From the NCBI RefSeq assembly GCF_000236685.1, contig NC_016633.1, positions 124,001-188,000 of the forward strand: a stretch of DNA of 64,000 nt. Reading direction: 5' to 3'. Below, piece after piece: positions 5,386 through 34,214 of the stretch (the stretch's first letter is position 1; every line of letters begins with the position of its first letter). Source of the stretch: Sphaerochaeta pleomorpha str. Grapes (GTDB lineage: Bacteria > Spirochaetota > Spirochaetia > Sphaerochaetales > Sphaerochaetaceae). A program made the position numbers and the translations under genes. The notes below the pieces were generated by a model, which saw only the letters and a program-made list of their open reading frames with translations, was not told the DNA's origin and did not search any database.

Positions 5386-6135
5386 ATGGAACGAAACGTA
5401 TCGTCCTTGGCAATTGTGGTCCATAGCCAACGGTACGGGCAACTGCACCGTAAGTTGAAATTGCTTACTGTTGATTTTGGTTTGATCGATGTCGTTTCCT
5501 ATGGGGCCCGGAAATCTGTGAAAGCTGTGAAGGCCGAGGTCTTTGTCGATGGCCAGTTCTTCCTTTATTATAATCCTGTAAAGAAAAGCTATACACTTTC
5601 CGATGTCCAGGTAGTAGCTACCCATGATGAAATTCGCTCCGACCTTGGTGCTACTTATGCCGCTTTGTTTTTTTGCGAGATGATCATGAAGACCCATGGG
5701 GGTGATAGTCCCCAGCAATATGATTTGATGAGCAAGGCTTTGGATATGCTCGTCTCTCACAGGATGCTTGCAAACCGGATTCTCATCCAGTTTGTCTGGA
5801 AGCTTATTGCTATTTGTGGTCTCCAGTCGGGCTTGGAACGTTGCCCCATATGTGACCGGTTATATGAAAGCAATGAAATTCTTTCGTTCAATGCACAATT
5901 GTCTGCCCCTTGTTGCAGTGATTGTGCTACATTGGATTCAGCGATGATGCTTCCTCCCGGTGCGAGGAAATATCTGAGTGTAACTGCTTCCATGGATTTT
6001 GTATCCGCTGTTTTTGTTGCATTGAGCGATACCGCTACCTTGCGAATCAAGAACTATCTGTTGAGGTATGCTGCCATCGTAAGCGGTGGCGCCCTCAAAA
6101 CCCTCAGTGGAGGTCTGTTGCAAACAGAGCTCTGA
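5386..6135 (+). CDS. recO: DNA repair protein RecO
   Basis: RecO binds single-stranded DNA and helps load RecA in the RecFOR pathway. The start at 5386 (MERNVSSLAIVV) is preceded by GGAGG in agtggaggctac. The 249-residue protein has an N-terminal OB-like domain with the VSYGARKS segment typical of RecO. The C-terminal helical domain carries zinc-type cysteines CPICDRLY and CCSDC near residues 155-183. Followed 36 bases downstream by recJ, so the two recombination genes probably share a transcript. Confidence 0.88.
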   Translation: MERNVSSLAIVVHSQRYGQLHRKLKLLTVDFGLIDVVSYGARKSVKAVKAEVFVDGQFFLYYNPVKKSYTLSDVQVVATHDEIRSDLGATYAALFFCEMIMKTHGGDSPQQYDLMSKALDMLVSHRMLANRILIQFVWKLIAICGLQSGLERCPICDRLYESNEILSFNAQLSAPCCSDCATLDSAMMLPPGARKYLSVTASMDFVSAVFVALSDTATLRIKNYLLRYAAIVSGGALKTLSGGLLQTEL

Positions 6136-6171
6136 AGTGTTTTTGCATATTTATTGTAAGGTTGTATATAT

Positions 6172-8319
6172 ATGTTTTGGAAAAAAAGTCCGGTTTCTTC
6201 ACGGGATGTCAAGCGCCTGCACGAGCAGTATGGCGTTGACTTGTTGTGTTCTTCAATTCTTGCTCGTCGTGGCCAGACCGAAAGCGAGCAGATTAAGTTT
6301 TTTCTTGAAAATGAATTGACGTTTCTGCATAATCCGTTCCTGTTCGACGATATGGAAGAGGTAGTCGACCGTCTCAATGTTGCCGTCGCCGAGGGTGAAA
6401 AAATCCGGGTTTTCGGTGACCGCGATGTTGATGGAATAACGAGTACTGTGCTTATGGTGCAGGAATTCCAGAGACTGGGGGTAGAGGTTTCCTACAAGCT
6501 TCCTGATGGGGATGAACCGTACGGTATGACCATCGATGGCGTTGAAGCTGCCGCTGCAGACGGGATTACCCTCATCGTAACGGTAGACTGCGGCATTTCT
6601 AACAATGCTGAAATTGCCCATGCGAGGTCATTGGGAATAGACACCATAGTACTTGATCACCATATCAGTGGCGAAGAACTCCCCCCCGCGCTTGCAATTA
6701 TTGACCCGAAGGTTCCCGGCTGCGGGTATCCGTTCAGTCACCTCGCAGGTTGTGGGGTAGCGGCAAAGGTAATTTGGGCGCTACGGTTCAGCCAGACTGA
6801 TTTTTATCACGAGGACTGCATTCTTTTACATGCACAACCGGGTCATGATACGGTCATTATCCAGGCTATCCGGGTGGAGAACCTTCTCGAGATTGACCGG
6901 GTGATCGAGGAGATTAACCCAGGGTTGCTTTCTCCTTCACAGAGCAAGGCACTTAAGTTCCTTTCCTGTGATGTGCCCATACTTGTGCTCGATGCTCCCT
7001 CTGAACTGGCCCAGTTGAGACTCGCTTTTGGCAAGGCTGTCGACATCCATTTGGTCGATATGCGTTCACAGATGGAAAATGTCATGCCGGTTATCAAGGG
7101 GAAAAGCCTTTTTGCACTCTCCAATATGAGCAGGGCGATGAAGTATAGCGTGCATGGCCGGGATGAGCTTCAGGTTCTCTATACGCTTTTTATCGCCTAT
7201 TGCATGAAAAAGTATCCTCTTCTCGATACCGGTTATGAATCGATTCTCGACTTGGTTGCCATTGGTACCATTGCAGACTTGATGCCCATGGAAGACGAGA
7301 ATAGGTTACTGGTTAAAAGAGGCCTGAAGGTATTGACTGCAGGGACGCGTCAAGCTCTCTTGCCCCTTTTCTCCATGCAGAACCTCGTTGGGAAGCAACT
7401 TTCTACCAGTGATCTCTCCTGGCAGATTTCCCCTATCATAAACGCAAGCGGACGGATGGGAAAACCCTCGGTTGCTGCCGACATGCTTTTGTCCCCCGAC
7501 CTTTCCCATGCTGAGCAGTTGGCAGGGGAGTTGGTCAGGTTGAACAAGGAGCGTCAGAAACTGGGGGAGGAAGCCTGGGACAGAATGCTGCCCATGGCAA
7601 AGGAAAGCTTTGAGAGTACTGGTTCAAAACTGGTGGTGGTCGAGGATTCTTCTCTTTCCCGCGGAATTACGGGGGTTATGGCAAGCAGGCTGCTCAAGCA
7701 GTTCAATGCGCCGTCTCTGGTGTTGGCGACGGTAGGAGGATCCAGGGTATCAGCTTCCATGCGGAGCCCCGATGATTTCAATGTCCGTGAATTCCTTTCG
7801 CTTTTCAGCGATTTGTTCCTTGATTACGGTGGCCATGTCTGTGCCGGTGGATTCTCGATGGATCTGAAAAACCTTCCTGTTTTCAAGAAACGGGTTATGG
7901 AGGAAATCGACCAGATGGATTGTCTGGAAGCTGAAGGCGAGACTGTCTCGATCGACTGCACGCTTCCCCAGGCTTACATGACTCCCGATATTATCAAGGT
8001 TGTTGAGTTCTTTGAGCCGTATGGCGAAAAGAATCCCCCGCTGGTTTTATTGATGGAAGGGGCTGTTATTGAAGATATTCAGTTTATGAACAATAACAAG
8101 GGGGGAGCGCAACACGTGCGCCTTACGATTGCTTTCGGCCAGTACAAATGGCCGGCGTTGTATTGGAAAGCAGGGGAGAGGGTAGGAAGGGACTTTGACA
8201 AAGACTCTGTGGTAGATATCGCTTTTCGTCTCGGGAGAAACTATTTTCGCAACCAATCGACTTTGCAACTGACAGTGATCGACCTTAAGACTGAAGCGGA
8301 TAAACTTTCTGGAAAATAA
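6172..8319 (+). CDS. recJ: Single-stranded-DNA-specific exonuclease RecJ
   Basis: A 5'-3' ssDNA exonuclease of the DHH phosphoesterase family, acting in recombination and mismatch repair. At 715 residues it is long for RecJ. It carries DHH-family motifs: GDRDVDGITST (around residue 83), VDCGISN and LDHHISGEELP. The DHHA1 region has the glycine-rich GGHVCAGGFSM (around residue 561), followed by an OB-like C-terminal domain. It follows recO at short distance. Confidence 0.93.
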   Translation: MFWKKSPVSSRDVKRLHEQYGVDLLCSSILARRGQTESEQIKFFLENELTFLHNPFLFDDMEEVVDRLNVAVAEGEKIRVFGDRDVDGITSTVLMVQEFQRLGVEVSYKLPDGDEPYGMTIDGVEAAAADGITLIVTVDCGISNNAEIAHARSLGIDTIVLDHHISGEELPPALAIIDPKVPGCGYPFSHLAGCGVAAKVIWALRFSQTDFYHEDCILLHAQPGHDTVIIQAIRVENLLEIDRVIEEINPGLLSPSQSKALKFLSCDVPILVLDAPSELAQLRLAFGKAVDIHLVDMRSQMENVMPVIKGKSLFALSNMSRAMKYSVHGRDELQVLYTLFIAYCMKKYPLLDTGYESILDLVAIGTIADLMPMEDENRLLVKRGLKVLTAGTRQALLPLFSMQNLVGKQLSTSDLSWQISPIINASGRMGKPSVAADMLLSPDLSHAEQLAGELVRLNKERQKLGEEAWDRMLPMAKESFESTGSKLVVVEDSSLSRGITGVMASRLLKQFNAPSLVLATVGGSRVSASMRSPDDFNVREFLSLFSDLFLDYGGHVCAGGFSMDLKNLPVFKKRVMEEIDQMDCLEAEGETVSIDCTLPQAYMTPDIIKVVEFFEPYGEKNPPLVLLMEGAVIEDIQFMNNNKGGAQHVRLTIAFGQYKWPALYWKAGERVGRDFDKDSVVDIAFRLGRNYFRNQSTLQLTVIDLKTEADKLSGK

Positions 8320-27223: not shown

Positions 27224-27871
27224 ATGGGGATTGTTGAACGGCGGATTCGTGACCGTCAGAATAGGGTAATGGAGATTCTTGACGCATCAAAGCGGATGTT
27301 TCGTTCCCGGGGGTTTATCGAGACTACCATGAACGAAATAGCAACCGATTCTGATTTAAGCAGACGGACTCTCTATTTATATTTCCATAATAAGGAAGAA
27401 ATATTGCTGACCCTTGCCGTACAAACACTGGAACAGCTTCTGGAAGAAACGGCAAAATCGAGAATCCAGGAAATGACCGGCATTGAACGATTGATCAACC
27501 TTGCAACGACCTATCGAAATCTCTATGTCGCCGATGCTGGCAGCTTCCAATTCATTCCGAATTTTACCAATTGTGTCCGTGCCTTGGGAGGTTCTCACCC
27601 AATTGTAAAGAAATGTGAGAATATTACGAATGAATTGATTTCCATTGTCTCAATGATGCTACAAGAGGGTATGGAAGACCATAGCGTACGGAAAATCGAT
27701 AATCCGACCAAAACTGCAGCGATACTGATTACCATGATCCATAGTTTCATCCAAAGTGTAGATACCGATAACGATCTGCTCTGTATCGCTTTGCATATTT
27801 CCCCATCTGATTTCCTTGATGAATCCTTTTCTTTTATTACCCATTATCTATCAGCTAAAGACAAAGATTGA
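27224..27871 (+). CDS. TetR-family transcriptional regulator
   Basis: N-terminal TetR DNA-binding domain: ILDASKRMFRSRGF then TTMNEIATDSDLSRRTLYLYF, with NKEEILLTL after it (residues 18-67). The helical ligand domain that follows has no recognised ligand class. GAGGTG precedes the ATG. It sits downstream of the iron-type importer, separated by a large inverted repeat, so it may control that operon or itself. Confidence 0.85.
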   Translation: MGIVERRIRDRQNRVMEILDASKRMFRSRGFIETTMNEIATDSDLSRRTLYLYFHNKEEILLTLAVQTLEQLLEETAKSRIQEMTGIERLINLATTYRNLYVADAGSFQFIPNFTNCVRALGGSHPIVKKCENITNELISIVSMMLQEGMEDHSVRKIDNPTKTAAILITMIHSFIQSVDTDNDLLCIALHISPSDFLDESFSFITHYLSAKDKD

Positions 27872-28048: not shown

Positions 28049-29539
28049 TTAGAAACTATAGGAAGCTTGTACCTGGATGAAATCATTGTTGGCGTAAGCT
28101 GCAAATTCACCATCCTCATCTGAGGTGAACAGAAAAGCAAGGGCAGTAACCATAAAGCCATCTTTCAACTGATATTCGAATTTTGGCATCACGATCAAAT
28201 CTTTTTGCTCAATTCCCCAGATAACAGAGATTGATGGTTTGGCCTTCGCATGGTTATAGCTGTCAGAAAACTGCAGCACAAGCTTGTCAGTCAGATATTT
28301 CCCTGCGGCATTGTAATCCATATCGCTGCTTGAGGAAATTTTGTCATTGTTGAAGATGTAGCTTCCGATGAGCTGTACATTCAAATTCATTTCGTTATAG
28401 GGGAGGTTGGTATCGAAACCGGCAAGATACTGCAGACTGTTGTTGTGGACTGAAGCATCGTCTCCGTCAATATCCTCGGTCAGGTAGTAAGCAACTTCAC
28501 CGCGAAGGTTGCATCTTCCCAACACCCCTGCACCGTCAATACCGAAGACCTGCAAACGATCATAGGAAAGATTGAAATCTGTTACCCCGGTTGCATTGGC
28601 AGTATAAGACACAGAAGGGGTCTTATAATGGCCAAGGTAATACTGGGCACCGAAATCGACAGGGCCGTAGGACCCGGTCAAGCGAAGACCGTACTGGCTG
28701 TATTTCAGGGAGTTGGTATCGGGGAGGAAGTCAGAGGCGCTGCTATAGGTATCGGTTATTGCAGAAGCTGCTGATACACCGGCTAAAGCTGCAGTTGCTG
28801 CGGCTGCTTCTGCCGTTCCCGAACTAGCAAGAACAGCTGCATATGCTGAGTTGTAGGCTGTGGAATATGCAGTTTTGGCCAAGTTGGTGACATAGGAAGT
28901 TCCCAAAGTGACCAATTGCGTCCCTGCTGCAGGAGCCCAGATTCCACTGGTAGGAATTTTATCGGCAGTCATGGAAGGTGTCCATACAGCTTCCAGACTC
29001 AATGCATTGCTCATATTCCAGGTCACCTGGAGCATGTCTTCACTGATTCTTCTGTCAAGGTAGTCAGGGATGAGGAAATCTGAATAATCATTTGCATTGA
29101 ACAAGTCCAATACATGGAGGTTGTCCCCGCGTCCCCAGACTATTTTTGACTTGCCTGCTTCTACGACGAAGTCGCCGAGGAAAGCCTTGTAGGTCAATTC
29201 GTCAAGGATTTCGGTTGGGTCATTTCTGAAGAGCAACTTGCCTCTCATTTCGCTATCGGTGCCATCATAGGTAAAGTCCAGGCGAACAGAAGGGTCAACC
29301 ATGGTGGCATAGTAATCGCAATTGCTGTTCAACGTATTGTCTTTGGATACATAGGCCCTGCTTGTAAGATCTGCATAGCCGTTGATAGTCAAGGCACTGG
29401 AAGATGCCGAGGAGGAAAGCTCTGTACTTTCCATTGAGTCAAAGAATGATCCGAAGCTGTCGTCTGCAAAGGCAATGCTGCCCTGCAGAAGAAGAACTCC
29501 TGCCATCCCTACGATCAAGGTTTTTTTAAAATGTGTCAT
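28049..29539 (-). CDS. Outer-membrane beta-barrel protein (DUF1302-like), N-terminal DSFGSFF motif
   Basis: 496 residues. A signal peptide ends AFA, and the mature N-terminus is DDSFGSFFDSMES followed by a serine-rich tether. Barrel strands start at LTINGYADLTSRAY and end with the canonical terminal IQVQASYSF. The segment EAGKSKIVWGRGDNLHVLD resembles DUF1302-type proteins. An Ala/Ser-rich insert (about 225-265) may be an extracellular loop. It is third in a unit with an RND exporter and a LolA-like protein, so it may be the outer-membrane end of that system. Confidence 0.75.
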   Translation of the reverse strand: MTHFKKTLIVGMAGVLLLQGSIAFADDSFGSFFDSMESTELSSSASSSALTINGYADLTSRAYVSKDNTLNSNCDYYATMVDPSVRLDFTYDGTDSEMRGKLLFRNDPTEILDELTYKAFLGDFVVEAGKSKIVWGRGDNLHVLDLFNANDYSDFLIPDYLDRRISEDMLQVTWNMSNALSLEAVWTPSMTADKIPTSGIWAPAAGTQLVTLGTSYVTNLAKTAYSTAYNSAYAAVLASSGTAEAAAATAALAGVSAASAITDTYSSASDFLPDTNSLKYSQYGLRLTGSYGPVDFGAQYYLGHYKTPSVSYTANATGVTDFNLSYDRLQVFGIDGAGVLGRCNLRGEVAYYLTEDIDGDDASVHNNSLQYLAGFDTNLPYNEMNLNVQLIGSYIFNNDKISSSSDMDYNAAGKYLTDKLVLQFSDSYNHAKAKPSISVIWGIEQKDLIVMPKFEYQLKDGFMVTALAFLFTSDEDGEFAAYANNDFIQVQASYSF

Positions 29540-29558
29540 ACTATACTATCCTTTGAAA

Positions 29559-30347
29559 TTACACTCGTCCGGTTTTAAGGAAACTGGTTGAGAAAAGTTT
29601 GCTGCTAATCGGTTTGTCCAACTGGAGTTGCAGAATGGTAAGTCTGGTGGAATGTCCGCTCTGTAGGTCTACCATATAGGAAGTAAACGGAATCCAGTAA
29701 CCGTCCTGCTGCTTGAGAGATTCGACCATGAGTACTTTGCAAGGTTCTTCATGCTTGTCGAACATCTCAACCTTTACCGGGACAAAGCTTTCTTGGTCGA
29801 TATAGGAAAGGCGGTACCCGTATTGTGATTCTGAAGCATTTTTCGCTACTGATTTAACCTTGTAGCAAACGTAGGAACCAACATTTTCTTCACCGATGAG
29901 CTCATGGTTGTCTACAGCAACTTCCCTGGTTTCCAGATCATCATAGGTTGCATCGGTGCCCATGAACGATTTATCCCCTTCACAAGAGGCAATACGACGG
30001 GTAGTTCTCAAGGCAGGAAGGTAAATCCACTTGTCATTCGGACGGCCGTCATTTTCGACCTGCAAAAAACGAGTATCTTTTACCGACGCAGGACTTCTGA
30101 AAACCATGACAGTTGAAACCAAATCATTTTCCATCTTTCCCCATTCTTCCATCATACGGGTTTCCACAGTGCCATTGGCGTCGATAAGGTCCATCTGTAC
30201 TGCTGAGTGGGAGAACTTGGGTTCTGCCACGTCATACGCTTTTTGCATGACTTCGGTTCCGGTCATGGCGAACACGGGAACTGATACTGCTACAGCCAGG
30301 AATAATGCTATCGTGAGCTTTTTCCCTTCATTGCATTTTGTTTTCAT
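29559..30347 (-). CDS. LolA-like outer-membrane lipoprotein-sorting protein
   Basis: Periplasmic protein of the LolA-like group often found beside RND/MMPL exporters. The start at 30347 (MKTKCNEGKKLTIALF) is supported by AAGGAG; the frame runs 8 codons further upstream. After the signal peptide (ending VPVFAM) come MQKAYDVAEP, MVFRSPASVKDTRFL, KWIYLPALRTTRRI and FMGTDATYDDLE. That last series closely matches the family as I recall it. It likely carries a hydrophobic cargo between the exporter and the outer membrane; the cargo is unknown. Confidence 0.83.
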   Translation of the reverse strand: MKTKCNEGKKLTIALFLAVAVSVPVFAMTGTEVMQKAYDVAEPKFSHSAVQMDLIDANGTVETRMMEEWGKMENDLVSTVMVFRSPASVKDTRFLQVENDGRPNDKWIYLPALRTTRRIASCEGDKSFMGTDATYDDLETREVAVDNHELIGEENVGSYVCYKVKSVAKNASESQYGYRLSYIDQESFVPVKVEMFDKHEEPCKVLMVESLKQQDGYWIPFTSYMVDLQSGHSTRLTILQLQLDKPISSKLFSTSFLKTGRV

Positions 30348-30369
30348 AACAACTCCTTCGATACGGAAC

Positions 30370-30429
30370 AAGAATAGGCCTTGGCCTGTTCTTCTCTAGT
30401 GGATCGTCCTACGGGGAAACAATTCCCCG
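30370..30429 (-). promoter_or_regulatory. Two tandem hairpins between RND and LolA-like genes
   Basis: AAGAATAGGCC / GGCCTGTTCTT (30370-30380, 30383-30393; one T-G pair) and CGGGGAA / TTCCCCG (30412-30418, 30423-30429, loop ACAA). Neither has a T-run, so they look like mRNA processing or stability elements. Confidence 0.55.
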
Positions 30430-30454
30430 CGAACGGTTCATACTTTGTGGGTGG

Positions 30455-33214
30455 TCAGTTTTTGTTGCGCTTGCTTTTTACCGGTCTGGAAATGAATCGT
30501 GGTTTGAATACGTTCAGCATCGCTGGAAGAATGGTCATGGCAGTAACAGAACTAGTCAGCATGACGACTGCCACGAGGATTCCGATATAGCGCAAGACAA
30601 CGAACTGGGAAAGACTGAGAACCAGGAAACCCAGTCCTACGGAAACAGCATTTACTACAATTGCTTTTCCCGTTGTTGCCAGCGTATTGAGCGTAACCGC
30701 GTGCAAATCATCGCAATGAAGCCTCTCGTAGTGATAGTCGCTCATGAAATGGATTGTATAGTCTACGCCTATTCCAATGGCAATCGAAGCAATGAGACTG
30801 GTAACCATGTCCAAATTGATACCAGCCAGTCCCATGATGCCGAAATTGATGAGAATCGAGAGAGATAAGGGAACCGCTCCGATAAGACCAGCTGCAGGTG
30901 AATGGAAATAGAAGGACAGAATCAAGAATACTGCAAGGATTGCAAGCAACAGACTGGTCATTTGGCTTGTAGTGATCATATCGGTCAATGCATTTTCCAA
31001 TTCTGCGATACCATAGGCCTGGATTGTATAGCCCTCAGGGAAATGAGTACTGGCGTAGTTCTGAGCATCAACGATGATATCATTGACCAACTTCGTCTTA
31101 TGGGTAGTCAGCTGAATCTGCATACGGGCCTGAGAAGGTTGCATAGCATTGTCAGAGAACTGATCCAAGGAACCTGAATAAAGCAAAAGATACTGGGCAA
31201 TAAGGTTTTTGAGCTCCTGTCGGTCGTTTACAGGGTATTTTGCCAAGTCGTAGGGAATCTCATCATAGGCAGCGCCTTTATAATTCAAGTCTTTTTCCAG
31301 GGCAGTAAGGAACTGGTCGACAGTCATTTCACCGCCACCAGCCTCTGCGAATGTGCGGTTGAAGAGGTCAAGCACATCCTCTACAGTAGGTGTCATCCCA
31401 AGCTGTGAAGCTGAGTCGGTATAAGATGTCTGTGTGTCAATTTCGGTGGCAGGTTCCTCACTTGAAGAGAAGAAGCTATCAACGCTATCGCTAGATGCAG
31501 CATTTTTTCCGTCACTTGCAAAGAAGCTATCGAAACTGCCTTCCTCTGCAACTGTAGTATCATTGGCGAAGAAACTGTCGACTGAAGAACTCTGGTCAGC
31601 GGAGAAGTCCTCGGGAGAATCCCCTTCTGTAGTTGCACCGGAATGCATAACCTTGTTCATTCTCTTGATGAAATCAGAGAAAGAGACAATCTTTCCAATA
31701 TCAGCATACTTAGTAGAAAGGTAAGAGGAGAGTTCATCCATGTCCTTGAGAATTTCAGGGTCGGTCAGGTCTCCAGGGTTTTGGCCTTTTACTATAAAAC
31801 TAAAGCTATTGGTTCCGGAGAAATTTTCATCGATAAACTTGGCGTCGGTTCTGATGGGAGACTTGGCAGGGAAATAGTTTATGATGGAAGACTCGACCTG
31901 CAATTTTATGATTCCCCAGAAGGAAAGTCCCATTATCAAAATGAATACTAGGAAAACCATTCCCTTACGGTTGGCCAGGTAGGTATAGAGTTTCCCTACT
32001 GTATTTTCATGCCAACCAGTCTTTTCGTTGCCTTTTTTATAATTCTGTTCTGGTGTCAGTTTCTTTTGCTTTGCAATCTTTTTGTTTACGCTACCCAGTG
32101 GTTTTACCAAAATGAGGGCAGGGATAAAGTAGAGGGAAAGCAGAAGTGCTATCAAAACACCGGTTGCACTGAACACTGCAAAGGTCTTCAAAGGAAGGAT
32201 TGGGCTGGTGATCGTCGAGAAAAAACCGCCGATGGTGGTCACCCCAGCCAGGATGACTGGAATACGGACTTTCTTCATTGAATGTTTCACTAGGGCCTTG
32301 TGCCTTTCGGGGGTCAATGCCTCGGTTTCACTTTTTAGTTCTTCATAATAATGATTCATTACATGGATGCCGTATGCTGAACCGACGGCTATCAAAACAA
32401 CCGGAAGACAACTTGATACAACGGTGAAATGGGCTCCACTTATGGCCATCAAGCCAACGGTCCATACGGTACTGATAATGACTGTTATAAAGGGAAGCAG
32501 CATTCCTTCCAGATTCCTGAAGGAAAAGAGCAGGCAGAGCAGCACGACAAGTGATACCAAGGGGATTAAACCTGACAAGTCAGTATGCATGTATTCGCGT
32601 GCTTTCTGGGAGAGGACAGGGTCTCCTGCCAGCCTGATGTTGATAGCGGGAACCGAATGGCTGTCTATAATCTGTAAGGTATCTGCATACAGCTGGTCCA
32701 TCTGGTCGGGAGTGATGTCCTTGTTTATGGTGACAATAATCTGGCTACCTCGCAAATCCTTAGAGGTAACTACTTTGTCATACATAGCCTGCCAGTCGAT
32801 GATATGTTCTGTGAGATTCTTCAATTCTTCGTCTGTTCCGGTAAAATCATCACCGATCAGGGCCCCTACTGCCATTCCTCCGTCAATCCCATCGATGAAA
32901 TCAACATTCGTCAAGGACTGTACCTCATCGATGAACGGAAGATTTTCGATCTCTGTGGTCAATTCCCGTATCAGGGTAATCGCCTCAGGGGTCAAAATGG
33001 TTTTGTTGTCTGTACTTATGGCAATATCCATGAGAATCTGGCTGCCATATAGCTCATCGGCTTCTTCCAGAAGCGTATACGAGGGTAGGCTGTGCGGAAG
33101 ATAGTTCTTGATTTCGTTGTCAATAATAATTTTTGGAATCATGTATCCCATGACCCCAGTTGCAAGTATAACCACGGCAATTATTATCCATGATTTACGG
33201 GAAGAATGTCCCAT
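30455..33214 (-). CDS. RND/MMPL-family exporter with repeated DSFF motif
   Basis: 919 residues from ATG 33214, chosen because GGAGG lies about 9 bases upstream. It has two halves, each with an N-terminal helix, a large periplasmic loop and a cluster of about five helices (SSD-like, for example GSAYGIHVMNHYYEE and ASIAIGIGVDYTIHFMSDYH). This fits proton-driven export of lipids or hydrophobic compounds. The second periplasmic loop carries three copies of S-V/F-D-S-F-F within a Ser/Asp-rich stretch (31459-31590). The LolA-like and barrel genes follow. Confidence 0.88.
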   Translation of the reverse strand: MGHSSRKSWIIIAVVILATGVMGYMIPKIIIDNEIKNYLPHSLPSYTLLEEADELYGSQILMDIAISTDNKTILTPEAITLIRELTTEIENLPFIDEVQSLTNVDFIDGIDGGMAVGALIGDDFTGTDEELKNLTEHIIDWQAMYDKVVTSKDLRGSQIIVTINKDITPDQMDQLYADTLQIIDSHSVPAINIRLAGDPVLSQKAREYMHTDLSGLIPLVSLVVLLCLLFSFRNLEGMLLPFITVIISTVWTVGLMAISGAHFTVVSSCLPVVLIAVGSAYGIHVMNHYYEELKSETEALTPERHKALVKHSMKKVRIPVILAGVTTIGGFFSTITSPILPLKTFAVFSATGVLIALLLSLYFIPALILVKPLGSVNKKIAKQKKLTPEQNYKKGNEKTGWHENTVGKLYTYLANRKGMVFLVFILIMGLSFWGIIKLQVESSIINYFPAKSPIRTDAKFIDENFSGTNSFSFIVKGQNPGDLTDPEILKDMDELSSYLSTKYADIGKIVSFSDFIKRMNKVMHSGATTEGDSPEDFSADQSSSVDSFFANDTTVAEEGSFDSFFASDGKNAASSDSVDSFFSSSEEPATEIDTQTSYTDSASQLGMTPTVEDVLDLFNRTFAEAGGGEMTVDQFLTALEKDLNYKGAAYDEIPYDLAKYPVNDRQELKNLIAQYLLLYSGSLDQFSDNAMQPSQARMQIQLTTHKTKLVNDIIVDAQNYASTHFPEGYTIQAYGIAELENALTDMITTSQMTSLLLAILAVFLILSFYFHSPAAGLIGAVPLSLSILINFGIMGLAGINLDMVTSLIASIAIGIGVDYTIHFMSDYHYERLHCDDLHAVTLNTLATTGKAIVVNAVSVGLGFLVLSLSQFVVLRYIGILVAVVMLTSSVTAMTILPAMLNVFKPRFISRPVKSKRNKN

Positions 33215-33401
33215 GCTCTGATGCCTCCAATGAATGCTATGTGCAAAGAATAACTTCAATGAGAATATATTGCACACAGTGTGAAATTCAAGAGTATAGC
33301 AAAACCATTTTACTTGTGATAAAAATGATTCATTAGCTTACTGGTCTGGTATATTTGGTTTTTCTTGCAGAAATCCAAGAAATCAAGCGAGAGGCTCAAA
33401 C

Positions 33402-33476: not shown

Positions 33477-34214
33477 TTATGTGTTTCGTTTTCTTTTCAT
33501 GATTGTCTTTTCGGTTTCCTTCGTAAGAAAAACAAATACAAACAATATGGAAGCATACTGAAGGACTGTGTAAAGTGGAGAAATTCCTGTCTGCTGTAGT
33601 AAGTTGGGATCGCGAGGCTCTGTGCGATCCTCTTTGTGGGAAAGTTCCTGCAGGCCGGAATTACTAAAAGGCATGCTTACCCATCGCAGATATTGGGTTG
33701 TTGCCAAGTTGTAAAGGCCAAAGGAAAGCATTCCTATGGTAAGTGCTACTGCAAGGGTTTTTTGTATTTTCCGATGGTTCCCAAGGTGTTTTGTTACAAC
33801 TTTTTTGATCATCTGGTAATGCATGCCAACATGGATTCCCAAAATAATGAGTAATGCAGCTGCGGTTGAGAGATGCACAGTCTTCCATATATTGCTGCCA
33901 TGGATATTGAATAGGGTTTTGCTGATCATGACAGAACTGATTGCCATAAGGATAATCCCAATGCAAGAAAACAAGGAAAGCACATAGCCTGCTTTCGTTT
34001 TTACTGGAAGGCTCTTGCCAAAGATTCTTTGCGTGCAATGAAAGAAATATCGGTAATTAAAAAAAATATGGATCAAGAAGATCCCCAGCAGGACAAGGCC
34101 CGCCAACTCATGGAACTCCATTGATACTGCATTTTTGTTATACATCAATACCAATAGGAGAGCCATCACTGCATCGAATACCAATTTGTAGGTTGTTTTG
34201 TGGTTCATGGGCAA
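33477..34214 (-). CDS. DUF4405-like integral membrane protein, possible b-type haem protein
   Basis: Four to five membrane helices in 245 residues. Histidines lie in or at the ends of helices (MEFHELAGLVLLGIFLIHIFF, and HLSTAAALLIILGIHVGMHY in the third helix pair). The paired spacing is typical of DUF4405/cytochrome b-like proteins that coordinate haem. No redox partner is encoded next door. MNHKTT at 34208 is an alternative start. Haem binding is inference. Confidence 0.62.
   Translation of the reverse strand: MPMNHKTTYKLVFDAVMALLLVLMYNKNAVSMEFHELAGLVLLGIFLIHIFFNYRYFFHCTQRIFGKSLPVKTKAGYVLSLFSCIGIILMAISSVMISKTLFNIHGSNIWKTVHLSTAAALLIILGIHVGMHYQMIKKVVTKHLGNHRKIQKTLAVALTIGMLSFGLYNLATTQYLRWVSMPFSNSGLQELSHKEDRTEPRDPNLLQQTGISPLYTVLQYASILFVFVFLTKETEKTIMKRKRNT

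Follow-up and report, generated by a model that had tools for sequence, protein, structure and literature searches.

Operon and paired tags

In Sphaerochaeta pleomorpha str. Grapes, three neighbouring genes encode an inner-membrane exporter of the resistance-nodulation-division (RND) superfamily, a LolA-like periplasmic protein and an outer-membrane protein (OMP). The exporter, in a periplasmic loop, and the OMP, at its N-terminus, share a short aromatic-acidic motif, here called the tag, whose two spellings co-vary beyond what composition explains. The analysed window comprises 64,000 nucleotides (NC_016633.1, positions 124,001 to 188,000), and coordinates refer to this window. All three genes lie on the minus strand in the order exporter, LolA-like gene and OMP gene, as an earlier sequence-only reading had correctly stated.

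The exporter (940 residues, 30455..33277) matches the MMPL family PF03176 in two stretches above the cut-off (1.1e-40), and hydrophobic segments flank two large loops, which fits the RND architecture; it is an MMPL-type RND exporter. Its match to the HAE3 model TIGR00921 (1.4e-79) reaches 268 bits, below the curated NCBIfam cut-off of 351.9, and by this model the protein is related to the HAE3 subfamily rather than a full member. The LolA-like gene (29559..30347; ATG start at 30347, with a TTG at 30371 in the same frame) encodes a member of the LolA_like family PF17131 (1.9e-60; 204 bits against a gathering threshold of 30), with PF07044/DUF1329 as a lower-ranked secondary match. Solved relatives of this protein are 9tp6, 3bk5 and 4z48, and its LolA portion is beta-rich with high confidence in an AlphaFold2 model. 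The OMP (496 residues, 28049..29539) has no family match in Pfam or NCBIfam, its profile matched none of the PDB sequences, and a pattern scan of the genome contigs found no relative, the patterns being too specific. Its AlphaFold2 model, built with 68 homologues, has a mean predicted local distance difference test (pLDDT) score of 90.7, a predicted template modelling (TM) score of 0.87 and strands throughout, as expected of an outer-membrane beta-barrel. Foldseek returned generic porin-type barrels only, with query TM scores of about 0.3-0.5.

The exporter tags lie in a Ser/Asp-rich insert (residues 545-628, 31394..31645), which is missing from the paralogous exporters of a motif-less clade. 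The insert is part of the second large periplasmic loop and is flanked by hydrophobic segments that end at residue 457 on one side and begin at residue 773 on the other. It carries SVDSFFAND (residues 565-573, 31559..31585), SFDSFFASD (581-589, 31511..31537) and SVDSFFSSS (598-606, 31460..31486), spaced 16 and 17 residues apart. In the OMP, the tag DDSFGSFFDS (residues 26-35, 29435..29464) directly follows the 25-residue signal peptide MTHFKKTLIVGMAGVLLLQGSIAFA and belongs to the segment DDSFGSFFDSMES. The sequence-only reading had described these motifs, their positions and the LolA-like gene encoded between them, and all of this was borne out. The first 21 residues of the mature OMP, tag included, have pLDDT below 50 and are predicted to be disordered; the tag is thus likely to form a free periplasmic tail. 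The core common to both membrane proteins is [F/W]-x(0-3)-[F/W/Y] among D/E/S/G. Of the other signal-peptide proteins encoded at these loci (n = 46), none has an aromatic-pair/acid motif at its mature N-terminus, and the sole match among the 47 sequences tested is the OMP of this operon in another genome. By this count, the position of the tag is more than chance.

Co-occurrence of the two tags

Orthologues of the operon were traced in 26 genomes of the genus, in the family and in about 70 fetched loci, and each exporter loop was set beside the N-terminus of the mature OMP; overall, about 100 RND-LolA-like-OMP operons were compared. The gene order is nearly constant and the conserved unit holds no fourth gene. 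The only other conserved partner is the LolA-like protein, the third member of the unit, which is always encoded with the exporter. Among the family operons with an exporter insert (n = 37), the OMP follows a simple rule of an aromatic pair plus an acid in 35; the remaining two (L071 and L072) use the single-aromatic spelling PSFGDD, which the pattern missed. A second operon clade has neither an insert in its exporters nor the motif in its OMPs. Where the insert is absent in the family (n = 22), 21 OMPs do not match, and the single hit (L100) is a WEF 26 residues in, an artefact of the pattern. OMPs without the tag also accompany 13 further insert-less operons, L142 among them. An alignment of orthologues had been proposed as a check on co-conservation, and in it insert and OMP tag are present or absent together. 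Because the insert-bearing LolA-like proteins form one clade, the count largely reflects a single evolutionary event, and the associated Fisher p-value is not to be taken at face value. At locus L142, the exporter insert is gone and the OMP has no tag, while the LolA-like protein keeps the residues of the tagged type described below, which looks like a coupled loss of both tags.

Some loci have a tagged-type setting with an incomplete set of parts. Exporters beside tagged-type LolA-like genes in L181, L182, L183, L187 and L191 have no aromatic loop tag and no adjacent barrel; these are possibly tag-less paralogues within tagged lineages. In L168 (G191:C1:850500-862000), the RND gene adjoins a LolA-like gene and has a degenerate loop motif, DDFGVFKTF, with no adjacent OMP seen.

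Covariation of tag spelling

The source operon pairs DSFF in the exporter with SFGSFF in the OMP. Most exporters of the family have a short insert with a single FDFF, and the OMPs of these operons start with FDIF, FDFF, FDLF or GFxDIF. Repeated tags occur in L070 (four APDSFFSSD; OMP SSDSFGSFFGG), L039 (six GDESFSSF; OMP FGSFGDSF...DSFFGSF) and L071/L072 (PSFGDD repeats; OMP LPSFDTP, IPGFGDE and LPGFES, i.e., a PSFGDD/PGFGDE pairing), and L081/L082 combine GLGFGFED with DFGFEDFGF. Across the class, the exporter/OMP pairs are DSFFDD/DSFFDD (L139), SFFEEE/SFFEEG (L128), SWGDD/AWGDS (L127), GFTSFF/GFTTF (L130), FDDGFGDDFG/FSDDFGDDSFGDDFG (L132), SFGFD/TFGFD (L148), AFGFSD/AFGFGD (L151) and LPPLGFE/PPPLGFD (L154). 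Treponema metagenome-assembled genomes (L192, L196) have DDWG on both proteins alike, and outside the spirochaetes, Halanaerobiales (L200-L203) combine SSFYQG with SFYG. On these alignments, both tags change spelling together across spirochaetes.

The covariation was quantified with 58 insert-bearing operons from the family and the class, collapsed by LolA identity to 20 clusters. Co-inheritance alone gives no resemblance between an insert and the OMP tag of its own operon, because the two segments are not homologous, and the spelling test is free of the single-clade weakness that affects the presence/absence count. Own-pair similarity exceeded all 100,000 random re-pairings (z = 8.2); with 35 clusters z was 8.5, and with 10 clusters it was 4.0, a value reached by 22 of 100,000 re-pairings. 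A second set of 30 loci from named genomes, only partly independent since its genera overlap those of the first set although known duplicates were removed, gave z = 4.3-5.4 with none of 100,000 shuffles reaching it. Recent copying of DNA between the two genes was rejected as a source of the likeness: the codons of matched tags differ, and the likeness is therefore kept at the protein level.

Both segments are rich in D/E/S/G/F and poor in K/R, and in the W-type and FDFF groups the similarity of a single pair is not significant on its own, as would be expected if Ser/Asp/Phe-rich segments resembled each other by accident. When both segments were shuffled at kept composition, the own-versus-other excess fell from 9.4 to 1.7; composition accounts for about a fifth of the excess and was rejected as the sole cause. 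Chance or low-complexity drift, which the sequence-only reading had named as an outcome that would undo it, is also contradicted by the presence/absence coupling, by the replication in the second set and by the prediction for unlinked barrels given below. It is strongly disfavoured, and we consider it highly improbable. The checks that the sequence-only reading had called for largely favour a functional motif common to exporter and OMP.

Two genomes (G043 and G044) have the exporter and LolA-like genes without an adjacent OMP gene, and their exporter inserts are tryptophan-rich (DDWSSDWGSDF and EDWSDWGSDWG). A W-type barrel tag was predicted from these loops and then found: a search with the OMP profile located the barrel on another contig, with the mature N-termini DEWDGGF and DDWDSF. 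Since the unlinked barrel keeps the matching spelling, a reader of the tags need not be encoded in the operon. A third periplasmic or envelope factor, e.g., assembly machinery or a cell-wall-bound adaptor, could read both tags and co-localise exporter and barrel. No such factor was identified, the other signal-peptide proteins of the same loci have no tag, and spelling that varies among operons is hard to square with one conserved housekeeping reader; we regard this explanation as improbable.

Further tagged systems were observed beside these. In the source genome, a second RND-LolA-OMP operon (L048, G000:C1:2439000-2449000) pairs FDFF in its exporter loop with GFDAIF in its OMP, and additional RND genes near 1.18 Mb (L059) lack the loop stretch. 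In L070 (genome G105), the OMP gene at 5460-7010 has a stop or frame change near the C-terminus, in a genome that is otherwise good. The diderm Halanaerobiales Natroniella and Halanaerobium (L199-L204) have the tagged system in SFY or SFGEE spelling, and their Treponema-like LolA proteins are 41-46% identical to the query; the system may have reached them by horizontal transfer or go back to a common ancestor.

The LolA-like protein as candidate reader

The tags on the two proteins are identical and not complementary, and a shared receptor is therefore indicated. The spelling data suggest that one shared partner reads both tags, and this partner is probably the LolA-like shuttle encoded between exporter and barrel. 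Two features of the shuttle are exclusive to tagged systems, i.e., Arg93 within residues 92-95 (T-R93-F-L, 30063..30074) and the signature F-L-x-T-G-R at the C-terminus (here FLKTGRV, 29562..29582). Arg93 occurs in all 58 tagged systems and in none of the 35 untagged ones, which have Ser, Gly or Ala instead; the C-terminal signature is split similarly, and in the solved relatives, which are untagged, Gly or Ala takes the place of Arg93. This split fits a tag reader, and it could reflect cargo instead. The idea of a LolA-like reader is supported by two precedents: the Hook loop of LolC recruits LolA (PMC10865981), and a fusion of an MMPL and a LolA-like protein exists, TOL_3187 (PMC6304351).

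Several observations weigh against this assignment. The Arg93 and C-terminal signature is not independent of ancestry, because it follows the single clade split. Untagged sister systems exist, and the tag is therefore not essential to the general mechanism. The expected covariation of copy number between the two sides failed to appear (Spearman -0.10), and swapping partners between two tagged operons of one genome changed similarity little (differences of +3, +10, +3 and -2), so that paralogous operons are not clearly insulated. Some pairs are imperfect, with a weak OMP tag in L119, an OMP tag without an exporter tag in L197 and W against F in L205. Moreover, AlphaFold2 was used to model the LolA-like protein of L139 tethered to the OMP N-terminus as a single chain, the two being joined through read-through of a natural in-frame stop. 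The whole tail stayed undocked with pLDDT of about 30; given the shallow alignment of 47 rows and the signal-peptide linker, this prediction is weak evidence against a LolA-like reader.

The tags could also act with no reading by the LolA-like protein, if exporter loop and barrel tail bound each other directly as aromatic low-complexity stickers resembling FG repeats and so tethered the membranes. Like-with-like spelling is equally expected from such homotypic cohesion, and several inserts are repeats of the SFGDE, GDESFSSF or GFGFED type. Single short tags such as FDFF, LPPLGFE and DSFFDD are, however, poor material for multivalent contacts, copy number is uncoupled between the two sides, and the barrel tail has only about 21 disordered residues, which makes direct contact rather unlikely.

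Proposed mechanism

We lean slightly towards a trans-envelope export route in which the LolA-like shuttle reads the tags of both pump and barrel. The RND pump would extract a hydrophobic cargo, inferred from the protein family only, from the inner membrane, the LolA-like protein would ferry it across the periplasm, and the barrel would receive it. One groove of the shuttle, possibly located close to Arg93 and to the C-terminal F-L-x-T-G-R strand, would read both tags: the exporter tags would recruit the empty shuttle for loading, and the barrel tag would capture it with its cargo for unloading. With both tags read at one site, the shuttle could not use that site to sit on both membranes at once, and this exclusive occupancy would make the hand-over directional. 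Several tag copies on the exporter would raise the local concentration of the shuttle.

The tag may instead act as a pseudo-substrate or plug: inserted into the shuttle's hydrophobic cavity, or into the lumen of the barrel, it would displace cargo rather than dock outside the cavity. Aromatic tags suit a hydrophobic cavity, and a single cavity would equally yield co-spelling. A lipid mimic would not usually have acidic residues at its flanks, and the barrel tail is predicted to be disordered and not lodged in the lumen, and we thus find a plug very unlikely. Returning to the shuttle that reads both tags, we see evenly balanced chances for its broader form, a co-evolving "hand-over code": in Spirochaetota and Halanaerobiales, a short motif duplicated on pump and barrel and read alternately by a single LolA-fold shuttle would direct cargo through the envelope, its spelling differing by lineage (DSFF, FDFF, PSFGDD, SFFEEE, LPPLGFE, DDWG and SFY).

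Neighbouring genes

A TetR-family regulator with a weak FadR-like NCBIfam match (27224-27871) is convergent to the operon, and in L086 and L096 the exporter is likewise preceded by TetR-like genes. A membrane protein with a DUF4405/cytochrome b561-like match (33477-34214) is encoded immediately upstream of the source exporter, in the same orientation.

Comparison with known systems

For RND-linked systems, a tag that co-varies on both membrane partners offers a concrete, peptide-sized hypothesis of how a LolA-fold shuttle finds first the inner-membrane pump and then the outer-membrane acceptor. Through its spelling, unlinked barrels can also be matched to their exporters from sequence.

In the Lol pathway (LolCDE-LolA-LolB), the shuttle likewise has a LolA fold and is recruited by a periplasmic loop of an inner-membrane protein, the LolC Hook (PMC10865981). 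The source system differs in having an RND pump instead of an ATP-binding cassette transporter of the LolCDE type, a barrel instead of the lipoprotein LolB, and the same tag on both membranes. The OMP tag is also reminiscent of the TonB box, a short N-terminal periplasmic motif of TonB-dependent receptors, themselves outer-membrane barrels, which is read by an envelope partner. The source tag is equally short, N-terminal, periplasmic and borne by an outer-membrane barrel, but its system has no TonB or plug, and the inner-membrane transporter carries the motif as well.

The RND lipid exporters of the HpnN and MmpL3 type belong to the same superfamily, and the source exporter's sequence matches to them all score below the family cut-offs. 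HpnN reportedly functions with no periplasmic or outer-membrane partners dedicated to it (PMC6394551). The T. pallidum RND protein TP0790 was modelled as an AcrB-type pump with the MacA-like adaptor TP0965, and no LolA-like partner was mentioned (PMC8407342). Our data suggest that spirochaete RND pumps encoded beside a LolA-like gene are perhaps not drug pumps of the AcrB type with MacA/AcrA-like adaptors.

AmeABCD, the monoterpene exporter of Castellaniella defragrans, is described (PMC6394551) as an HAE3 RND protein with a LolA-superfamily protein (DUF1329), an OMP (DUF1302) and AmeC. The source operon also combines an HAE3-type RND protein, a LolA-superfamily protein and an OMP in one cassette, and the Ame shuttle family, DUF1329/PF07044, is the secondary match of its LolA-like protein. 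The Ame system differs in its DUF1302 barrel, its DUF1329 shuttle and its fourth component AmeC, whereas the source OMP has no Pfam family, its shuttle matches PF17131 better than DUF1329 and a fourth gene is absent. The comparison is based on the published description, and the passages of PMC6394551 consulted mention no paired tag. The open-access literature searched, subscription papers and preprints being outside its scope, contained no description of the paired motif. The host system resembles AmeABCD, and the new feature is the co-evolving tag paired on its two membrane proteins.

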